Shown here: piece after piece, positions 55,230-62,403 of the stretch | Layout: each line of letters starts with the position of its first letter | How positions within the stretch are numbered: position 1 is the stretch's first letter | Assembly: GCA_023663085.1 (NCBI GenBank) | Contig: JAMPIB010000013.1 | Span: forward strand, 1-62,403 | Length of the DNA: 62,403 bases | Direction: 5' to 3' | DNA from: Ruminococcus sp. | GTDB lineage: Bacteria > Bacillota > Clostridia > Lachnospirales > Lachnospiraceae | The notes under the pieces: generated by a model | Database searches by the model: none | The model's input: the letters and a program-made list of their open reading frames with translations, nothing else | Told to the model about the DNA's origin: nothing | Translations under genes and position numbers: made by a program

Positions 55230-55260
55230 AAAAGGAACAGCAGTCATGTTGTTCCTTTTC
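55230..55260 (+). terminator. Bidirectional terminator between GH43 and YesN genes
   Basis: AAAAGGAACA and TGTTCCTTTT-type arms (with one wobble) close around GTCA, with A runs before and T runs after the stem. It serves the GH43 gene and the convergent regulator, whose last codons lie within it. Confidence 0.85.
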
Positions 55261-56845
55261 TGTAGTCCCGGATAGATTTCCCAGTATATTTTTTAAAACA
55301 GTTGCTGAAATAATAAGCATCCGGAATACCGACAGCTTCTGCAATCTGATAGGCTTTTAAGTCTGTGGTGTTTAAAAGCGTAATAGCATGTTCCATGCGA
55401 AGGCGGTTCAGGTATTTGGAAAAACTGAATCCCAGTTCTTTTGTAAAGGTTCTGCTTAAGTAGCTGTCGTTCATATGGAATGTTTCAGCTATAGAACCAA
55501 GTGAAAGCGAAGAATCTGTCAGGTGTGCCTGAATATACTGCATGACTTCCCACAGGATGGTCTTGCTTTTATTGGTTCGGTAGGCAGCGATTTCTGATGT
55601 TAGCCGGGTCAAAAAAATATTAGTCTGGTTACGCAAATCTTGGCTGGTAGGTTCCAGCAGGATTTGTAAAAAAGAATTACCGGAATCAGAAAACAGACCA
55701 TCCAGAGGAATACCGATATCATTTGCTACATTGATGGCAGATGACAGTAATGTCATGGATAAAATACGTGCGTGTTCCAGACTGATCATATTTCCCTCTG
55801 AATCTATGAAAAGCGGAAAAAGAAGCTTTTGTACAGAATCAGGAAGACCGGCTTTAATATAAAATTTGATGTCCTCTAGCTCCGCGGGAGAGGAAGACCA
55901 TTCGGAATTTTGTACATGAATATCATTCTGATAGATAATGATCGGCTGGTTTGGCATATATCGACTGAATTTAAGTGATTCCAGAGCCTCTGACCAGGAG
56001 ATTTCCGCTTTGTAAAAATTATCATAGCAGTTACCGATACCAAATAATATTTCGTTTCCCGAAGTCTGATAGATACTGCGCTGGAGTTGTTCACATAAAG
56101 AAACGACCTGTACTTCTGGTGAATAAGTCAAAAGTACCAGATGATGATTGTTGTCAGCAAATATCTCAACATTTTTGGTATCTTTTAAATGATCTTTAAT
56201 AAATTCAAGATTTTTCATATCCTGCAGGAGATGTTCTTCTTCCGTTAAATTACCTGCATGAGAGGAATGCGCTTCTAAAAGGGTGACTTGTATGTACGAA
56301 GGTATTCCATCTGAAAAATAATAAGAAATCTGTTTTTCTGTAGAGGCTGAATGTGTACTGTTCTCACAAAATTCCAGTAAGAAACGTTCTCTTAAAAAAG
56401 AATAATTTTTTTCCAGAATTTTTTTGAGATGGTCAAATTCCAGCCATTGCTGTTTTTCTTTCTCAATCTGTTCCCGAAGTTTTAAAAGTGTTGATACCAG
56501 ATCATTACGGTTGATCGGTTTTAAAAGGAAATGAGAAACTCCCAGACTGATACACTGGTGGGCATAATCAAAGTCTTTAAAAGCAGTCGTAATGACGATT
56601 TTAATATGCGGATATCGTCTGGTCACAATACTGCAAAGTTCCATTCCATCCATATAGGGCATTTTAATATCTGTAAAAAGAATATCTGGGAGTTGCTCCT
56701 CCATGATAGCGAGTGCATCTTGTCCGGAAACCGCTTCAGCAATGATCTCCATATTCAGTTCATTCCAGTTTGTGGCTGTAATGAGCATTTTACGCGCAAG
56801 TTCTTCGTCATCTACAATAATGACTTTATAAATCGAGTTGTTCAT
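55244..56845 (-). CDS. YesN-type response regulator with AraC DNA-binding domain
   Basis: The 533-residue protein has an N-terminal receiver (acidic pair Val-Asp-Asp-Glu-Glu near residue 11, phosphoacceptor Asp in Leu-Phe-Thr-Asp-Ile-Lys-Met-Pro near 57 and Lys in Leu-Lys-Pro-Ile-Asn). A central region of about 270 residues of unknown structure follows. The C-terminal AraC/XylS domain has two helix-turn-helices, ending Tyr-Phe-Ser-Asn-Cys-Phe-Lys-Lys-Tyr-Thr-Gly. It is convergent with the sugar operon and its ATG overlaps the YesM gene end by 20 bases. It should activate the importer and GH43 genes. Confidence 0.92.
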   Translation of the reverse strand: MNNSIYKVIIVDDEELARKMLITATNWNELNMEIIAEAVSGQDALAIMEEQLPDILFTDIKMPYMDGMELCSIVTRRYPHIKIVITTAFKDFDYAHQCISLGVSHFLLKPINRNDLVSTLLKLREQIEKEKQQWLEFDHLKKILEKNYSFLRERFLLEFCENSTHSASTEKQISYYFSDGIPSYIQVTLLEAHSSHAGNLTEEEHLLQDMKNLEFIKDHLKDTKNVEIFADNNHHLVLLTYSPEVQVVSLCEQLQRSIYQTSGNEILFGIGNCYDNFYKAEISWSEALESLKFSRYMPNQPIIIYQNDIHVQNSEWSSSPAELEDIKFYIKAGLPDSVQKLLFPLFIDSEGNMISLEHARILSMTLLSSAINVANDIGIPLDGLFSDSGNSFLQILLEPTSQDLRNQTNIFLTRLTSEIAAYRTNKSKTILWEVMQYIQAHLTDSSLSLGSIAETFHMNDSYLSRTFTKELGFSFSKYLNRLRMEHAITLLNTTDLKAYQIAEAVGIPDAYYFSNCFKKYTGKSIRDYRKGTT

Positions 56846-58607
56846 CCTGTTTCTCCATTTTATTCAGTGGAATTGAAAATATAATTGTGGTTCCCCTGTT
56901 GGGGAGGCTGTTTATGCTGCATATATCCTGTGTTTCATAGAAAATCTGCATTCGCTCGATCGTACCCCGCAAACCAAAGCTTCGGGAAGGGTCGTCGATA
57001 TTGGGTGACCAGATTTTTTCGAGTTCAGCGGGTGTCATGCCAATACCATTATCTGCAACTTCAATAAAGAGGTATTGGGAATCGGTAAAAACAGATATTT
57101 TTATTACACCGGAATCACAGGTGGGGATAATACCATGATACAAAGAGTTCTCCACCAGAGGCTGTAAGATAAGTTTCGGGATCCGATAAGAGAGAACATC
57201 TTCCTGCAGGACATATTCGTCGTTGAAAGCTTCGGGAAAACGTACTTTCTGCAGTTTCAGATAATTTTTAACAATATTGATCTCAGTGGATAAAGTAACA
57301 ACTTTATTTCCTTTGCTCAGACTTTCACGATAATATTCTGATAAGGATATGATCAGGTCGTAAGCTTTTTCATTTTGCTGTGAAGTTACCAGATAGGAGA
57401 TTGCACCTAAACTGTTATAGAGGAAGTGGGGTTTGATCTGCTCCTGCAGGATGTTGAGTTCAGCCTTTCGTAGTCTTTTCTGCTCTTCAACTTTAGAATC
57501 AAGAAGTTGCCGGATCTTATCGATCATATCGTTATAGGTGTTCTGCAGTTGTCCGATCTCATCATAATAGGGAGTTACGTTAGCGTGGTTAAAATCTCCG
57601 GTCTCTGTTTTTTTCATGGCCTTCATCAGCTGGCCCAGCGGAGCGGTGACAAACTGATTCGTGCCCAGAGCGATCAGAATGAAAAAAAGAAAACTGATCA
57701 GAAGAATGATAACGGAAATAAGGATAAAAGTCTTATGCTGGTTTGTCAGATAATTATAGTTAATAGCGGCTATGTAGTTCCAGTCGAGGCTGGAGGTCTG
57801 CAGGTTTAATAATAGATAGCGGTCATGATCACATTGGATGATATTTTCGGTAGACAGAGAGTCTGCATGGATATTTTCAAGCCAGAGATTCAGATCACTA
57901 TTTAGAAAAGGCAGAATGATATCTGTTCCGGAGGATACACAGAAATCAGAATAATTGCTGTCATCTTCACGGGCAAAAGAAAAAAGAGAGTTTACGGAAA
58001 TATTGATAAAAAGATAGCCCAGAGGCTGTGCATCTTCTGTACTATTGATCAGACGTATTAAAGTAATATAATTGTTGTCTTCTTCAAATGTAAAATAGCC
58101 ATCTGCATTGACAGTTAAAATAGGAGCACCTTTTTTACTGTGTAATTCTTCATACCAGGAGGTATTTTCGGGGGAATCTATTTGTATGGAAGGAAGATTA
58201 TACCGGGCGGCACCCTCATATGTTCCGGAGGGCTGCATAACAACGATGGAAGAGACCGACGGCATTGATTCGAGGCTCATATAAAGAAGATTACGGAGCT
58301 GTCTGGATAAGATAGCATATTCAGCATGGTTCGCATTCTGAAGATAGTTCTGTACTTCTGCTGTTCCGAGTAAATAGGTTGAACTCTTAGAAATTACTGA
58401 CAATGAACTGTCTACATTTTGGGAAACTGTTTTCACAGTCTGCGAGGTAAGTGTGGAAATGGTTTTTTGCATTTCACGGGAAAAAAATCCATATAGTATC
58501 AGAAGGTTACAAAAAATGCAGACAAAAATTAAAGCAGTATAAATATACTTTAGTTTTGAGGTTAAAGAAAGGTTAAAAAAAGCCTTTTTTATACGTTGTG
58601 AATACAT
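56826..58607 (-). CDS. YesM-type sensor histidine kinase
   Basis: The 593-residue protein has a membrane segment near residues 20-42 and an extracytoplasmic sensor domain (about 43-295). A second segment follows near 297-320, then a HAMP-like linker, and a His_kinase domain with phosphoacceptor His in Gln-Ile-Lys-Pro-His-Phe-Leu-Tyr-Asn. The ATPase domain has Asp-Asn-Gly-Ile-Gly-Met and Gly-Leu-Arg-Gly-Thr-Ile-Glu-Arg. Such pairs detect extracellular sugars, here probably xylo-oligosaccharides. GGAGG precedes the ATG. It forms a two-gene operon with the YesN regulator. Confidence 0.92.
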   Translation of the reverse strand: MYSQRIKKAFFNLSLTSKLKYIYTALIFVCIFCNLLILYGFFSREMQKTISTLTSQTVKTVSQNVDSSLSVISKSSTYLLGTAEVQNYLQNANHAEYAILSRQLRNLLYMSLESMPSVSSIVVMQPSGTYEGAARYNLPSIQIDSPENTSWYEELHSKKGAPILTVNADGYFTFEEDNNYITLIRLINSTEDAQPLGYLFINISVNSLFSFAREDDSNYSDFCVSSGTDIILPFLNSDLNLWLENIHADSLSTENIIQCDHDRYLLLNLQTSSLDWNYIAAINYNYLTNQHKTFILISVIILLISFLFFILIALGTNQFVTAPLGQLMKAMKKTETGDFNHANVTPYYDEIGQLQNTYNDMIDKIRQLLDSKVEEQKRLRKAELNILQEQIKPHFLYNSLGAISYLVTSQQNEKAYDLIISLSEYYRESLSKGNKVVTLSTEINIVKNYLKLQKVRFPEAFNDEYVLQEDVLSYRIPKLILQPLVENSLYHGIIPTCDSGVIKISVFTDSQYLFIEVADNGIGMTPAELEKIWSPNIDDPSRSFGLRGTIERMQIFYETQDICSINSLPNRGTTIIFSIPLNKMEKQDEQLDL

Positions 58608-58671: not shown

Positions 58672-58731
58672 GGGAATTGTAATTTAATCTGAACTTTTTG
58701 AATGTTCGAATGTTTAAATGATAATGAAAAA

Positions 58732-58863
58732 ATGTCAAAAGTGTTCAAGGAGATGTCGTTAAAAAAACTGCTGGCTTCTATGTTGCTTGGACTGCTTGCA
58801 TTTATGATGTTTTTTGGCGGATATCTTGGTTTATATGAAATAAGAAAAGAAATAAGAAAATAA
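58732..58863 (+). CDS. 43-residue membrane peptide (candidate)
   Basis: An open frame from ATG at 58732 to TAA at 58863 encodes 43 residues: a basic start, one hydrophobic segment (about residues 13-34, Leu-Leu-Ala-Ser-Met-Leu-Leu-Gly-Leu-Leu-Ala-Phe-Met-Met), and a charged tail Glu-Ile-Arg-Lys-Glu-Ile-Arg-Lys. No good ribosome binding site precedes the first ATG; a second ATG at 58753 lies right next to AAGGAG. It may be a small membrane peptide or the remains of a longer protein. The rest of the 460-base gap (58608-59067) holds two promoters and two palindromes, described separately. Confidence 0.35.
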   Translation: MSKVFKEMSLKKLLASMLLGLLAFMMFFGGYLGLYEIRKEIRK

Positions 58864-58922: not shown

Positions 58923-58952
58923 TTGACAAGTATTAATAGTATGGAGTATACT
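58923..58952 (+). promoter_or_regulatory. Strong promoter of the 59-61.6 kb operon
   Basis: A perfect TTGACA and TATACT are separated by 18 bases. Transcription would start near 58959, directly at the first GTTAG-N6-CTAAC palindrome, as expected for a repressed promoter. Confidence 0.75.
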
Positions 58953-58959
58953 AAAAACA

Positions 58960-58975
58960 GTTAGCGACTACTAAC
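58960..58975 (+). promoter_or_regulatory. Operator-like palindrome, copy 1
   Basis: GTTAG-CGACTA-CTAAC has perfect five-base arms and lies at about +1 to +16 of the predicted transcript. The same arms and spacing recur at 59003-59020 and 61727-61744. The layout suits a TetR-type repressor, but no such gene is in the window. Confidence 0.65.
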
Positions 58976-59002
58976 ACATGTGGTCGTTTTTGCTTGATAC
59001 AA

Positions 59003-59020
59003 AGTTAGTTTATACTAACT
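59003..59020 (+). promoter_or_regulatory. Operator-like palindrome, copy 2
   Basis: AGTTAG-TTTATA-CTAACT has perfect six-base arms, centred 44 bases downstream of copy 1. That is about four helical turns, so the two sites lie on the same face of the DNA. Confidence 0.65.
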
Positions 59021-59067
59021 GCAATTGTAAAATTTTGGAGGCAGTTTCTGCGATCAGAGTATTGTGT

Positions 59068-59355
59068 ATGTTCGGCAGGATAATCATTGAGGGGATTGGG
59101 TTAAGCGTGGTCCTGTTTATCGTGTGCGCCATTGGAATTAAAGACGGCGCCGTGGGGATGGTTCATATGTACCACAAGGATGTACAGGACAGGTGTGTGG
59201 AAATGGGACTGACTACTCATGAGCGTATCAGGAAAAGGGCTAAGACCATGAAACTGTGCGGAATGGTGATATATCTGACCTATGTCCTTATTGCCGTATA
59301 TGCGGTCAATGGCATCCGTGGTTTTCTTATATTAACCGAAAAGATAAGGCGGTAA
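59068..59355 (+). pseudogene. Truncated membrane protein related to the 60206 gene
   Basis: The frame from ATG at 59068 encodes 95 residues with two or three membrane segments. It shares with the protein at 60206 a first membrane segment, Gly-Asp/Lys-x-x-x-Gly, a Tyr-x-Lys-x-x-Gln-Arg-x-x-Glu-Met-Gly-Leu-x-Thr stretch, and an Arg/Lys-rich linker. It stops at 59355, where the homologue continues about 70 residues. One extra T in GGTTTTCTT (near 59320) would open the next frame to about 59444, a hydrophobic C-terminus resembling the homologue's end, but a middle segment would still be missing. GGAGG at 59037 has no start codon at normal distance. Decay is likely. Confidence 0.45.
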
Positions 59356-59444
59356 AATGGATAATGGGAACGGTGGGTTTTGCAGTTTTGTCAGCTGCGG
59401 CTGCGGCGCTTGGCGCTGCTGCTAAAGTAGAGGAAGGAGATACA

Positions 59445-60158
59445 ATGGGAAAAACAAAAAATCATTTTAACAATATCGGTATCAGCAGCGAACTGGATAT
59501 GCCGAGGATACGGCATCTTATGAAAATCGGGCTTGTTGCAGCGGTCATGGTACTGGCCGGGGATATGCTGTTAGGTTATGGGGCGGCGGAGACGGAAGTA
59601 TCCGGTATTCCGGTAACCTTTGCAAGGTATCTGACCGTATCGGATGGAAGAATATTCTGGTCGGCAATTTTAGGGATGATAGGCATCCCGTTGGAGTGCC
59701 TCTGTTATTTTGCGATTTACAGACTGATAGCCTGTAAAAGCGAAAAATATGCGCATACATACCGCGCGGGGATTTTCGGCTGCCTGATATTTGCCGGCTG
59801 CGGAGTCCACGTTCCCTGCTGTGCGGTGGTTTATTTCCTGAAGAAAATGTATGAGTATAGTCCGGATACGGCGCTTGAAATGGCAATGGTATATCTGGCT
59901 TATTTTCTTGTGCCTGCGATGATTCTATTTTTGGTTTTCTTTTTTGTCCTGACGGTAACGCAGATAAGAGCCTTTGCCAAGGGATTGACGCCGTTTCCGA
60001 AATGGACGTGGATATTTTCGGTTCTGTTCGGCCTGCTGGCGGCGGTGATATTAAAGGCTCCGAATCTGCCCCTGACGAATGCGCTTGCAACGGGCTGGAT
60101 CAGCATCGGGAATCTCTGGATGTTTGGCGGATTGCTTTTCATGACAAGAAAGAAATAG
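59445..60158 (+). CDS. DUF6796-like membrane protein
   Basis: The 237-residue protein has six or seven membrane segments. Asp-Met-Pro-Arg-Ile-Arg-His-Leu-Met-Lys-Ile-Gly precedes the first, and Gly-Asp-Met-Leu-Leu-Gly-Tyr-Gly lies near its end, as in DUF6796 proteins. The loop Cys-Gly-Val-His-Val-Pro-Cys-Cys near residue 129 is cysteine-rich. I chose ATG at 59445 because GAAGGAG lies six bases upstream; the same frame stays open for 189 bases before it, through the decayed end of the preceding gene. Function is unknown. Confidence 0.75.
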   Translation: MGKTKNHFNNIGISSELDMPRIRHLMKIGLVAAVMVLAGDMLLGYGAAETEVSGIPVTFARYLTVSDGRIFWSAILGMIGIPLECLCYFAIYRLIACKSEKYAHTYRAGIFGCLIFAGCGVHVPCCAVVYFLKKMYEYSPDTALEMAMVYLAYFLVPAMILFLVFFFVLTVTQIRAFAKGLTPFPKWTWIFSVLFGLLAAVILKAPNLPLTNALATGWISIGNLWMFGGLLFMTRKK

Positions 60159-60205
60159 AAAGGCGGGAATGATGTGACGATCCTTGCCAGGGGGGGTGAG
60201 ATGAT

Positions 60206-60691
60206 ATGCTTTTTGTTTTACAGTTATTCATTTATCTGGTATTTTTCACAGCCTGTATAAAGCTGCTGGTCTTAGGCGACCCGGTGAGAGGGATTTTCTT
60301 TTATCCGAAGCCGATACGGCAGAGGGCTTTTGAAATGGGGCTGGCTACGGAACGGGAAGCAAAAAGGCGCAAAAGGATATTCTTTACCGTGCTTGTTTTG
60401 GGGATTGTGATCCTGCCGGTGGTATTTATCGGATGCTGGAGCGGTATTTCCGACTTTAAGACCGCATTTCTCCATGCGCTGGTTTTTCTTGAGGTAATGA
60501 ACTGGTATGATGGCATCGTAGTGGATGAAATATGGGTGAGATTTGACAGATTCTGGGTAATAAAGGGTATGGAAGATCTGTCCCATGTAAAGAATCTGAA
60601 ATTTGTTTTAACAGAAAGGTTCATAATGACGGTTGTTTATATCCCTGTGGCGGCAATAATTGGAGTGGTCGTTTCTTTTTTGCCAAAGTAA
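60206..60691 (+). CDS. Small membrane protein of unknown function
   Basis: The 161-residue protein has about four membrane segments. Pro-Lys-Pro-Ile-Arg-Gln-Arg-Ala-Phe-Glu-Met-Gly-Leu-Ala-Thr lies in the first cytoplasmic loop, and Asn-Trp-Tyr-Asp-Gly-Ile-Val-Val-Asp-Glu-Ile-Trp-Val near residue 92-104, a likely functional motif. GGGGGGTGAG precedes ATG. It is related to the truncated gene at 59068, so this locus once held two paralogues around the DUF6796-like gene. I do not recognise a characterised family. Confidence 0.75.
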   Translation: MLFVLQLFIYLVFFTACIKLLVLGDPVRGIFFYPKPIRQRAFEMGLATEREAKRRKRIFFTVLVLGIVILPVVFIGCWSGISDFKTAFLHALVFLEVMNWYDGIVVDEIWVRFDRFWVIKGMEDLSHVKNLKFVLTERFIMTVVYIPVAAIIGVVVSFLPK

Positions 60692-60780
60692 AAACACAGT
60701 AATTGGAACTGATAAAGGAGAACTGTGCAAAATGAGACATACGGATTTTAACAGGAAAAATAAGACAGGAGAGTGATAAT

Positions 60781-61572
60781 ATGGATCTGCAATTAGGAGA
60801 TGTCCAGGAAACAGCCTTGATTCCACTTGCAGTCAGGGCGAATGAGACAAAGCGAGGGAATGCGCGCATCCACGATGAAAAAGCGGTGGAGATTATAGAA
60901 ACGCTAAAGGTTGACACAAAGGATATTGATAAGTTCTTTTCTCATGAGGGTGTGGTGGCAAGGACGATCATGTTTGACAGGATGCTGAAAGAGCTGCTGG
61001 AAAAATATCCGGATGCGGTCTGCGTCAATATTGGCTGCGGATTGGATGACCGTTTTTCACGGGTGGATAACGGAAAAGTAAGATGGTTCAATGTAGACCT
61101 TCCGGATTCCATAGAAGTGAGAAAAAAAGTTTTTACAGAGACGGAGCGCGAGCATATGCTGGCCGGGGACATTCTTGAGACAGGCTGGATAAAAGATATT
61201 CCGAAAGCGGAAGTGGTGATCGTGATCGCAGAGGGACTGCTCATGTATTTTTCCAGAGAACAGGTAGGGACGATTCTGCGTAATATCACGGATTCCTTCG
61301 ACAGAGGATTCGTGCTGGCGGAACTGATGCACCCTAAGATGATGAAAGAAAAAGCGCATGATACGGTAAAACGCACCAAGGCGAAGTTTGGATGGGGAAC
61401 TGAAACGGGAAAGGATCTGTTGGAACTTAACCGGAAACTGGAACTGGTAAGGGAGAACAGCTTCTGGGACGAGATGAAGAAATATACACTTGTGGGAAAG
61501 CTGGGGAGCGTGGTAGCTAAAAATTTAAATAACCGGCTTGCCATCTACAGGTGGGGAAGTAATGCGTTATGA
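60781..61572 (+). CDS. LCM-family class I methyltransferase
   Basis: The 263-residue protein resembles leucine carboxyl methyltransferase and TcmP-type enzymes. It has an Arg-Ala-x-Glu-Thr segment near residue 20 (Arg-Ala-Asn-Glu-Thr-Lys-Arg), the SAM motif Val-Asn-Ile-Gly-Cys-Gly-Leu-Asp-Asp-Arg near 82, a Phe-Asn-Val-Asp-Leu-Pro-Asp strand near 101, and Ile-Ala-Glu-Gly-Leu-Leu-Met-Tyr near 149. Bacterial members often methylate small molecules in secondary metabolism. CAGGAGAG precedes ATG. Together with the following ABC exporter it suggests modification and export of a compound; the acceptor is unknown. Confidence 0.87.
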   Translation: MDLQLGDVQETALIPLAVRANETKRGNARIHDEKAVEIIETLKVDTKDIDKFFSHEGVVARTIMFDRMLKELLEKYPDAVCVNIGCGLDDRFSRVDNGKVRWFNVDLPDSIEVRKKVFTETEREHMLAGDILETGWIKDIPKAEVVIVIAEGLLMYFSREQVGTILRNITDSFDRGFVLAELMHPKMMKEKAHDTVKRTKAKFGWGTETGKDLLELNRKLELVRENSFWDEMKKYTLVGKLGSVVAKNLNNRLAIYRWGSNAL

Positions 61573-61714
61573 AGTGCCGTATGAAACTGGCGAAACGAGA
61601 CAGACAAAGGATATGGTTTTTGCTATCCTAAAAAAAGCGGAAATCCGCGCAGATGCCATATCCCACAGGAAAATGGGGATGACGCCGATGGATTGCCGGA
61701 ATCGGCAGCCTTAA
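61562..61714 (+). CDS. 50-residue peptide overlapping the methyltransferase end (candidate)
   Basis: An open frame from ATG at 61562 to TAA at 61714 overlaps the methyltransferase stop by 11 bases and follows AGGTGGGGA, a plausible ribosome binding site. The product is charged, with several Met residues near the end and no membrane segment. I recognise no family. Overlap and site favour a real gene; short length and unknown sequence leave it uncertain. Confidence 0.3.
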   Translation: MRYEVPYETGETRQTKDMVFAILKKAEIRADAISHRKMGMTPMDCRNRQP

Positions 61715-61726
61715 AATAAAAATTCG

Positions 61727-61744
61727 GGTTAGCAAAAACTAACC
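61727..61744 (+). promoter_or_regulatory. Operator-like palindrome, copy 3
   Basis: GGTTAG-CAAAAA-CTAACC has perfect six-base arms and lies 24 bases before the ABC exporter start. Its core matches the two copies near 58.97 kb. There is no clear promoter close to it. Confidence 0.65.
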
Positions 61745-61768: not shown

Positions 61769-62403
61769 ATGAAGCAAGAAAAAAAGAACGGTGTGGCTGT
61801 CCTGCTGGAATATGCGGGAAACCGCAGGAGTCTGACCTTTTTAGGGTTGGTCCTGTCGGCAGCGTCCATGCTCCTTAGCATGGTTCCCTACATTTGCATC
61901 TGGCTGGCAGTTCGTGATCTGATAGGGGCGGCTCCGGAATGGACACAGGCGCAGGATGTTTCCAGATATGGCTGGATAGCCTTTATGTTCGCCGTAGGCG
62001 GTATTATCCTGTATTTTGCGGGCCTGATGTGTACCCATCTGGCGGCGTTCCGTACAGCTTCTAACATACGAAAACAGGGAGTTGCCCATGTGATGAAGGC
62101 TCCGTTGGGATTTTTTGATGCCAACGCCTCCGGTCTGATCCGCGGGCGGCTGGATGCGGCGGCAGCCGACACCGAAACGCTGCTGGCGCATAATCTGGCT
62201 GACATCGTAGGCACTATTGTATTGTTTTTGTCGATGCTGGTCATGATGTTTCTTTTTGACTGGCGGATGGGGGCGGCATGCCTGCTGGCGGCGGTCATTT
62301 CGATCATCGCCATGTTCTCCATGATGGGAGGCAAAAATGCTAAGATTATGGCGGAATACCAGGCGGCCCAGGACCGCATGACGAAAGCGGGAACGGAATA
62401 TGT
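61769..62403 (+). CDS. ABC exporter, transmembrane domain (partial, runs off the window)
   Basis: The reading frame from ATG at 61769, with AAGGAGG eight bases upstream, stays open to the window end (about 211 residues). It has a cytoplasmic start, membrane segments at about 22-46, 68-88, 143-163 and 167-187, and the coupling-helix region Val-Met-Lys-Ala-Pro-Leu-Gly-Phe-Phe-Asp near residue 108, followed by Gly-Leu-Ile-Arg-Gly-Arg-Leu-Asp. This is the layout of MsbA/IrtA-type ABC exporters, whose ATPase domain would lie beyond the end. Such half transporters usually come in pairs. The palindrome just upstream links it to the 59 kb operon. Confidence 0.85.
   Translation, partial: MKQEKKNGVAVLLEYAGNRRSLTFLGLVLSAASMLLSMVPYICIWLAVRDLIGAAPEWTQAQDVSRYGWIAFMFAVGGIILYFAGLMCTHLAAFRTASNIRKQGVAHVMKAPLGFFDANASGLIRGRLDAAAADTETLLAHNLADIVGTIVLFLSMLVMMFLFDWRMGAACLLAAVISIIAMFSMMGGKNAKIMAEYQAAQDRMTKAGTEY

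Follow-up and report, generated by a model that had tools for sequence, protein, structure and literature searches.

The closest described counterparts of the element analysed here are the operators of the repressors DtxR and IdeR in Actinobacteria. In two publications (PMC10317159; PMC8464063), the DtxR/IdeR box is described to consist of four CCTAA repeats read by two dimers, and IdeR also binds the half site, two repeats with a 4-bp spacer (TTAGGTTAGSCTAACCTAA), as one dimer with an estimated apparent dissociation constant of 78 nM. At IdeR-repressed genes the box covers the transcription start and/or the -10 element, and the single-dimer site in other species is called uninvestigated in PMC10317159. 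We analysed a stretch of 62,403 bases (the window, contig C4 in its entirety) from the draft genome of a Ruminococcus sp. (3.44 Mb, 95 contigs, 90.7% complete), in which three perfect GTTAG-N6-CTAAC palindromes accompany a methyltransferase operon and a gene for an ATP-binding cassette (ABC) exporter. As the half site TTAGG-N4-CCTAA can be written TTAG-N6-CTAA, its geometry equals that of the window sites. With a probability of roughly 75%, we read the palindrome as the operator of a short DtxR-family repressor whose metal-loaded form, probably carrying iron, would repress both the operon and the exporter. Below, C-numbers denote contigs of this genome, L-numbers fetched loci and G-numbers genomes of the family.

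Proposed operator sites and their spacing rule

The window scan returns three perfect sites where chance predicts 0.02, and none of 100 shuffles reaches three. These are the palindromes that the original prediction had named, and the wider limits it gave for two of them, 59003-59020 and 61727-61744, are also correct, with one extra paired base per side. When up to two mismatches are allowed, 15 sites are found against 17.2 expected, which is chance level, so the signal in the window rests on the perfect sites. The strong promoter that had been proposed for the operon is present as described, and its position places the beginning of operator 1 at about the predicted transcription start, an arrangement shared with IdeR-repressed genes as these are described in PMC10317159. 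Operator 3 indeed lies just ahead of the exporter start (Table 1). In six promoters of this type, the paired sites are 43-47 bp apart; TTGAC, TATA.T and both sets of operator arms show no variation, in contrast to most other positions.

The spacing rule was derived from 994 kb around 80 related methyltransferase genes. There, GTTAG-Nn-CTAAC occurs 101 times at n = 6 and no more than twice at each of the remaining spacer lengths in the range 0-15, and GTTAG ranks first of 1024 possible arms. A site is present in 53 of the 80 loci. The shared TTAG arms and one-dimer spacing link these sites to the IdeR/DtxR box. In contrast to that box, only the half site is found, either single or paired about 45 bp apart, the outer G/C is fixed while the inner base is free, and TTAG-N1-CTAA is rare, with 6 occurrences against 135 of TTAG-N6-CTAA. 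The classical two-dimer IdeR box (19 bp, four repeats) is excluded by this rarity and by the window sites being single palindromes. Chance as the origin of the sites is likewise rejected by the window, the spacer and arm, and the genome counts.

The palindromes could also be repeats or RNA structures without any DNA-binding reader. A hairpin overlapping operator 1 is more stable than 196 of 200 shuffled versions; across six related promoters, pairing is conserved in 45 of 48 cells, and two double changes occur. However, for 110 of the 120 distinct sites in fetched loci, a gene pointing away from the site begins no more than 400 bp from it, the spacer is exactly six with inner bases free, and site counts track the presence of DtxR as detailed below. 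We regard this explanation as very improbable. An attenuator role of the 5' hairpin was rejected, as the covariation is weak and 23 of 500 shuffles reach the same level; the sole match of an Rfam search is sub-threshold and located elsewhere.

Conservation of the sites and the probable family of their reader

The motif occurs in the whole genome above random frequency, as had been anticipated, with nine perfect sites on three contigs compared to two for the reversed-pattern control. Across 200 genomes of this family of anaerobes there are 1176 sites against 360 control sites, and the motif is present in 186 of them. G157 carries 43 perfect sites against 2 of the control, far above every other family genome.

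The occurrence of the motif follows that of this DtxR. The 14 family genomes without it have a mean of 1.86 sites, the same as the control (1.86), whereas the 186 genomes with it have a mean of 6.18 against 1.80 (one-sided p 5e-5). In other families of the order, there are 242 sites against 139 control sites in 72 genomes bearing this DtxR and 49 against 85 in 31 genomes that lack it (p 4e-5, tested on the difference). Broken down by family, three show strong enrichment (123 vs 22, 68 vs 16 and 34 vs 6), a fourth shows a weaker one (35 vs 19) and several others show none. The sites also stand in front of dtxR itself. Among 54 of 56 loci with the best-scoring DtxR matches (not a random draw; two loci were too short), 19 upstream regions contain a perfect site and none the control arm; with one mismatch allowed, the counts are 25 and 1. 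In a smaller set, 17 of the 29 loci tested (out of 31) contain a one-mismatch site. At L098, sites are located between divergent feoAB and dtxR.

The genes behind the sites point in the same direction. Pfam was run on 115 of 121 first genes, leaving out five open reading frames (ORFs) below 70 aa and one 1391-aa ORF cut by the locus edge; the 121 derive in part from loci chosen via methyltransferase or TetR relatives. The scan finds 7 DtxR, 5 FeoB, 5 FeoA, 11 ABC_tran, 10 ABC_membrane, 4 LCM, 4 HMA, 3 PF01497 binding proteins and 4 TetR. For comparison, 115 ORFs were scanned out of 194 in these loci that lie over 3 kb away from a site, a control that is not neutral and is inflated for TetR. 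Of the first-gene families, only ABC_tran (2) and TetR (6) appear among its 25 families shown. By its construction, the control also includes the dtxR of the Ruminococcus genome and a methyltransferase, each represented once and ranking below those 25. The only set chosen by the pattern alone, 75 sites from 14 of the 186 site-bearing genomes, directly precedes dtxR-type genes 8 times, feo 12 times, relatives of the exporter 7 times and tetR once; within 3 kb the numbers rise to 14, 21, 13 and 6. DUF3793 (7 of 115; L105:8033-8602) and DUF2325 (5 of 115; L156:7243-7524) were also found first behind an operator, and these unknown families may belong to the metal response.

The original prediction had favoured a TetR-like repressor encoded beyond position 62403, and the counts at the 75 sites do not support this choice. 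The contig ends at that position, relatives continue with a second ABC half-transporter, and the sole PF02742 (DtxR) gene of the genome is located on contig C3. The accompanying statement that the window contains no regulator gene was too wide, as genes for a histidine kinase and a response regulator of the AraC type are located upstream on the opposite strand. All 11 TetR_N matches and the single PF02742 match are on other contigs. A TetR-family repressor would nevertheless explain the locus if the protein encoded on C17, or one encoded near the exporter in relatives, bound the sites and derepressed the modification and export genes upon ligand binding. The C17 tetR gene has two sites at its own promoter in the classical layout, both of its orthologs at 84-85% identity keep at least one site, and TetR makes up 4 of the 115 first genes. 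On the other hand, relatives of this TetR (E <= 1e-25) occur in 8 of 200 family genomes compared to 186 of 200 for the motif, five distant orthologs (34-37%) keep the PEP-synthase-like neighbour (PEP, phosphoenolpyruvate) without a site in the loci read, and a site is found at one of the 11 TetR loci of this genome. These counts, together with the single tetR gene directly behind the 75 pattern-chosen sites, led us to reject TetR as the general binder, and we consider a TetR-family reader of the window sites unlikely. On C17, the TetR, the PEP-synthase-like enzyme and a MATE transporter (L012:6072-10554) form a conserved set, with the operator only in close relatives; the enzyme shows a weak likeness to rifamycin phosphotransferase, below the cut-off. 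One Fur-family gene is present in the genome, and Fur boxes look different from the GTTAG-N6-CTAAC palindrome.

Sensed metal and proposed regulation

The DtxR relatives are short (about 120 aa) and consist of PF01325 and PF02742 domains without the third, SH3-like domain. In length and in their closest PDB structures they resemble MntR, the manganese sensor. Cys99, Glu102 and His103 occur in 61 of 61 sequences (a few genes were fetched twice), with the Cys at the position of IdeR Cys102; the Cys-Glu-His set is as in IdeR, and MntR has Glu at position 99. At position 8, where IdeR has Met10, Asn is found in 52 sequences, Asp in 8 and Met in 1. In PMC10317159, sulfur ligands are described to raise iron selectivity, with Cys being IdeR-type and Asn at position 8 MntR-type. 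Gln43 of the recognition helix might have changed together with the loss of the inner base, but this argument was dropped, because the Q43A variant is reported to bind normally (PMC8464063).

A DtxR-family repressor that senses manganese in the manner of MntR would be in line with the best PDB matches, with Asn8 and with a ZupT-like gene near dtxR in this genome (below the model's cut-off). It would not explain why the Cys is invariant where MntR has Glu, nor why the ferrous iron genes feoA and feoB stand behind the sites, and we judge it improbable. Iron is the likely metal.

We infer the following regulation from the sites, the genes behind them and the ligand residues. With sufficient metal, most likely ferrous iron, a metal-loaded DtxR dimer would bind one palindrome, each subunit contacting one TTAG arm. 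At the start of the orfA-DUF6796-orf3-methyltransferase operon, with its two sites, the bound repressor would block RNA polymerase, and the ABC exporter would be blocked separately through operator 3. When metal becomes scarce, the repressor would be released, and operon and exporter would join a little-studied metal-starvation response, to which in relatives feoAB, dtxR and other transport genes behind the same operator would also belong. The candidate repressor in this genome is the product of the PF02742 gene on C3.

Several observations weigh against this assignment. Sites do recur before the same genes in relatives, in support of the original expectation, but their conservation ahead of the methyltransferase is partial. 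Within 250 bp upstream, a site is found for 25 of 74 methyltransferase genes tested and for 7 of 11 relatives of the exporter; within 6 kb the methyltransferase count is 44 of 74, and the control arm gives 0 in all three cases. For the hydrolase AB1 the count within 250 bp is 1 of 6, and for the window-type DUF6796 it is 0 of 4. These counts leave out a methyltransferase and a hydrolase located at contig edges and cover the ORFs retained by a greedy caller, which hides shorter overlapping genes such as the L204 methyltransferase. Sites are also found in front of enolase genes, which account for 5 of the 115 first genes (for example L102:7868-9217, L124:16134-17444, L131:4584-5891 and L154:4534-5835), and tetR genes stand near the exporter in L101, L102, L138 and L200, which speaks for a TetR-family reader. 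The only FeoB gene of this genome has no site in the 10.8 kb around it, even with one mismatch, and the dtxR gene of the same genome has only a two-mismatch palindrome upstream. A perfect site is absent from 9 of the 186 DtxR-bearing family genomes. The genome-count statistics ignore kinship, and some genomes are incomplete. Furthermore, the nearest solved relatives are MntR and position 8 is mostly Asn, so that iron is no more than the probable metal.

Beyond the assignment of the operator, a broader proposal joins two parts. Lachnospiraceae-type bacteria and related families would use a short DtxR with hybrid ligands, MntR-like Asn and IdeR-like Cys, as an iron regulator acting through single-dimer half sites, and the window operon would be an unrecognised iron-starvation system that both modifies and moves a metal-binding small molecule. 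This system would comprise DUF6796, orf3, the LCM methyltransferase and the ABC pair, and its sister operons would contribute alpha/beta hydrolases. We hold both parts together only tentatively, at somewhat less than even odds. The hybrid-ligand reading goes against the reviewed view, as given in PMC10317159, that iron control in low-GC Gram-positives is the task of Fur, with DtxR proteins serving for manganese. The DtxR assignment would provide a testable operator, a candidate regulator and a list of genes under metal control for this family, of which the named relatives encountered here were mostly sampled from gut and rumen. It would also connect DUF6796, DUF3793, DUF2325 and the orf3 family with metal starvation and supply many natural examples of a single-dimer DtxR site. 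A search of the open-access literature, outside of which most subscription papers lie, gave nothing on this motif in these bacteria and nothing with DUF6796, and it gave DUF3793 only in one paper on a fungus; earlier work may therefore exist.

Genes of the locus and its relatives

The DUF6796, LCM-type methyltransferase and ABC exporter labels of the original prediction are borne out by Pfam (Table 1).

Table 1. Features of the operon and exporter region, in window coordinates
Feature	Position	Strand	Remarks
Promoter of operon	58923..58952	+	TTGACA 58923-58928, 18-bp spacer, TATACT 58947-58952; matches the consensus in 11 of 12 letters; conserved in five further promoters with sites
Operator 1, GTTAG-N6-CTAAC	58960..58975		at predicted transcription start; pattern scan
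Possible RNA hairpin, then T-rich DNA	58963..58988	+	overlaps operator 1; weak covariation
Operator 2	59004..59019		44 bp after operator 1; pattern scan
orfA, small membrane-like protein	59068..59355	+	start codon inferred; ORF open from 58978
DUF6796 protein	59445..60158	+	start inferred; PF20599, E 9.5e-64
orf3, membrane-like protein of unknown family	60206..60691	+	no family match
LCM-type S-adenosylmethionine methyltransferase	60781..61572	+	PF04072, E 1.9e-13
Operator 3	61728..61743		25 bp ahead of exporter start; pattern scan
ABC exporter-type half-transporter	61769..62403	+	PF00664; cut by contig end

By sequence comparison, orfA is a shortened relative of orf3. Pfam and NCBIfam searches gave no match for orfA, and Pfam, NCBIfam and PDB searches gave none for orf3; PDB profile searches with DUF6796 and orf3 returned nothing convincing. 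Among named relatives, the closest matches to the methyltransferase locus come from metagenome-assembled genomes, for instance Blautia sp. NALB_7961 with 90% identity; most of the 80 related loci carry names of Lachnospiraceae or other Clostridia-type bacteria. In relatives, genes of these kinds recur in altered order downstream of a comparable promoter-operator module, with a second ABC half-transporter following the exporter gene.

Like the siderophore importers YbtPQ and IrtAB, the system would have two exporter-fold ABC half-transporters under a metal-type operator. In a PDB search with a relative of the exporter, the best half-size chain is YbtP (309 bits), followed by IrtA (284) and MsbA (273), and two-domain eukaryotic exporters outscore YbtP in total score. 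NCBIfam, in contrast, favours MsbA-like models for the exporter, all below the cut-off.

The operators of this genome are distributed over contigs C4, C17 and C19. On C4, two sites precede the window operon and one the ABC exporter. On C17, two precede a pair of alpha/beta hydrolase genes followed by a DUF6796 gene, two lie between the divergent DUF6796 and TetR/PEP-synthase-like enzyme/MATE transporter genes, and one precedes genes for an HMA-domain protein, a 133-aa protein and DUF6796. The site on C19 precedes an ABC ATPase and an FtsX/MacB-type permease. The genome has four recognised DUF6796 genes, each of them within a site-preceded operon.

Some versions of the locus encode a DtxR-type protein themselves. 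L202 has such a gene within its version, and the operons of L198 and L204 contain a second DtxR-type gene after orf3; the window operon, unlike these two, has no DtxR-type gene after orf3. Because Lys and Asn occupy two ligand positions in the protein of L198 and L204, its mode of metal sensing, if any, may be atypical. Ahead of dtxR on C3, to which the ZupT-like gene is close, an imperfect palindrome with a TTAG-N1-CTAA core (L118:9980-10110) resembles the inner half of the classical IdeR box more than the N6 site. The genes for the histidine kinase and the AraC-type response regulator lie just upstream of the window operon, at 55244-58607 on the minus strand. Between them and the operon, a 53-aa ORF (58702-58863) gives a weak DUF6796 match below the cut-off (E 0.00026) and is perhaps a gene remnant.

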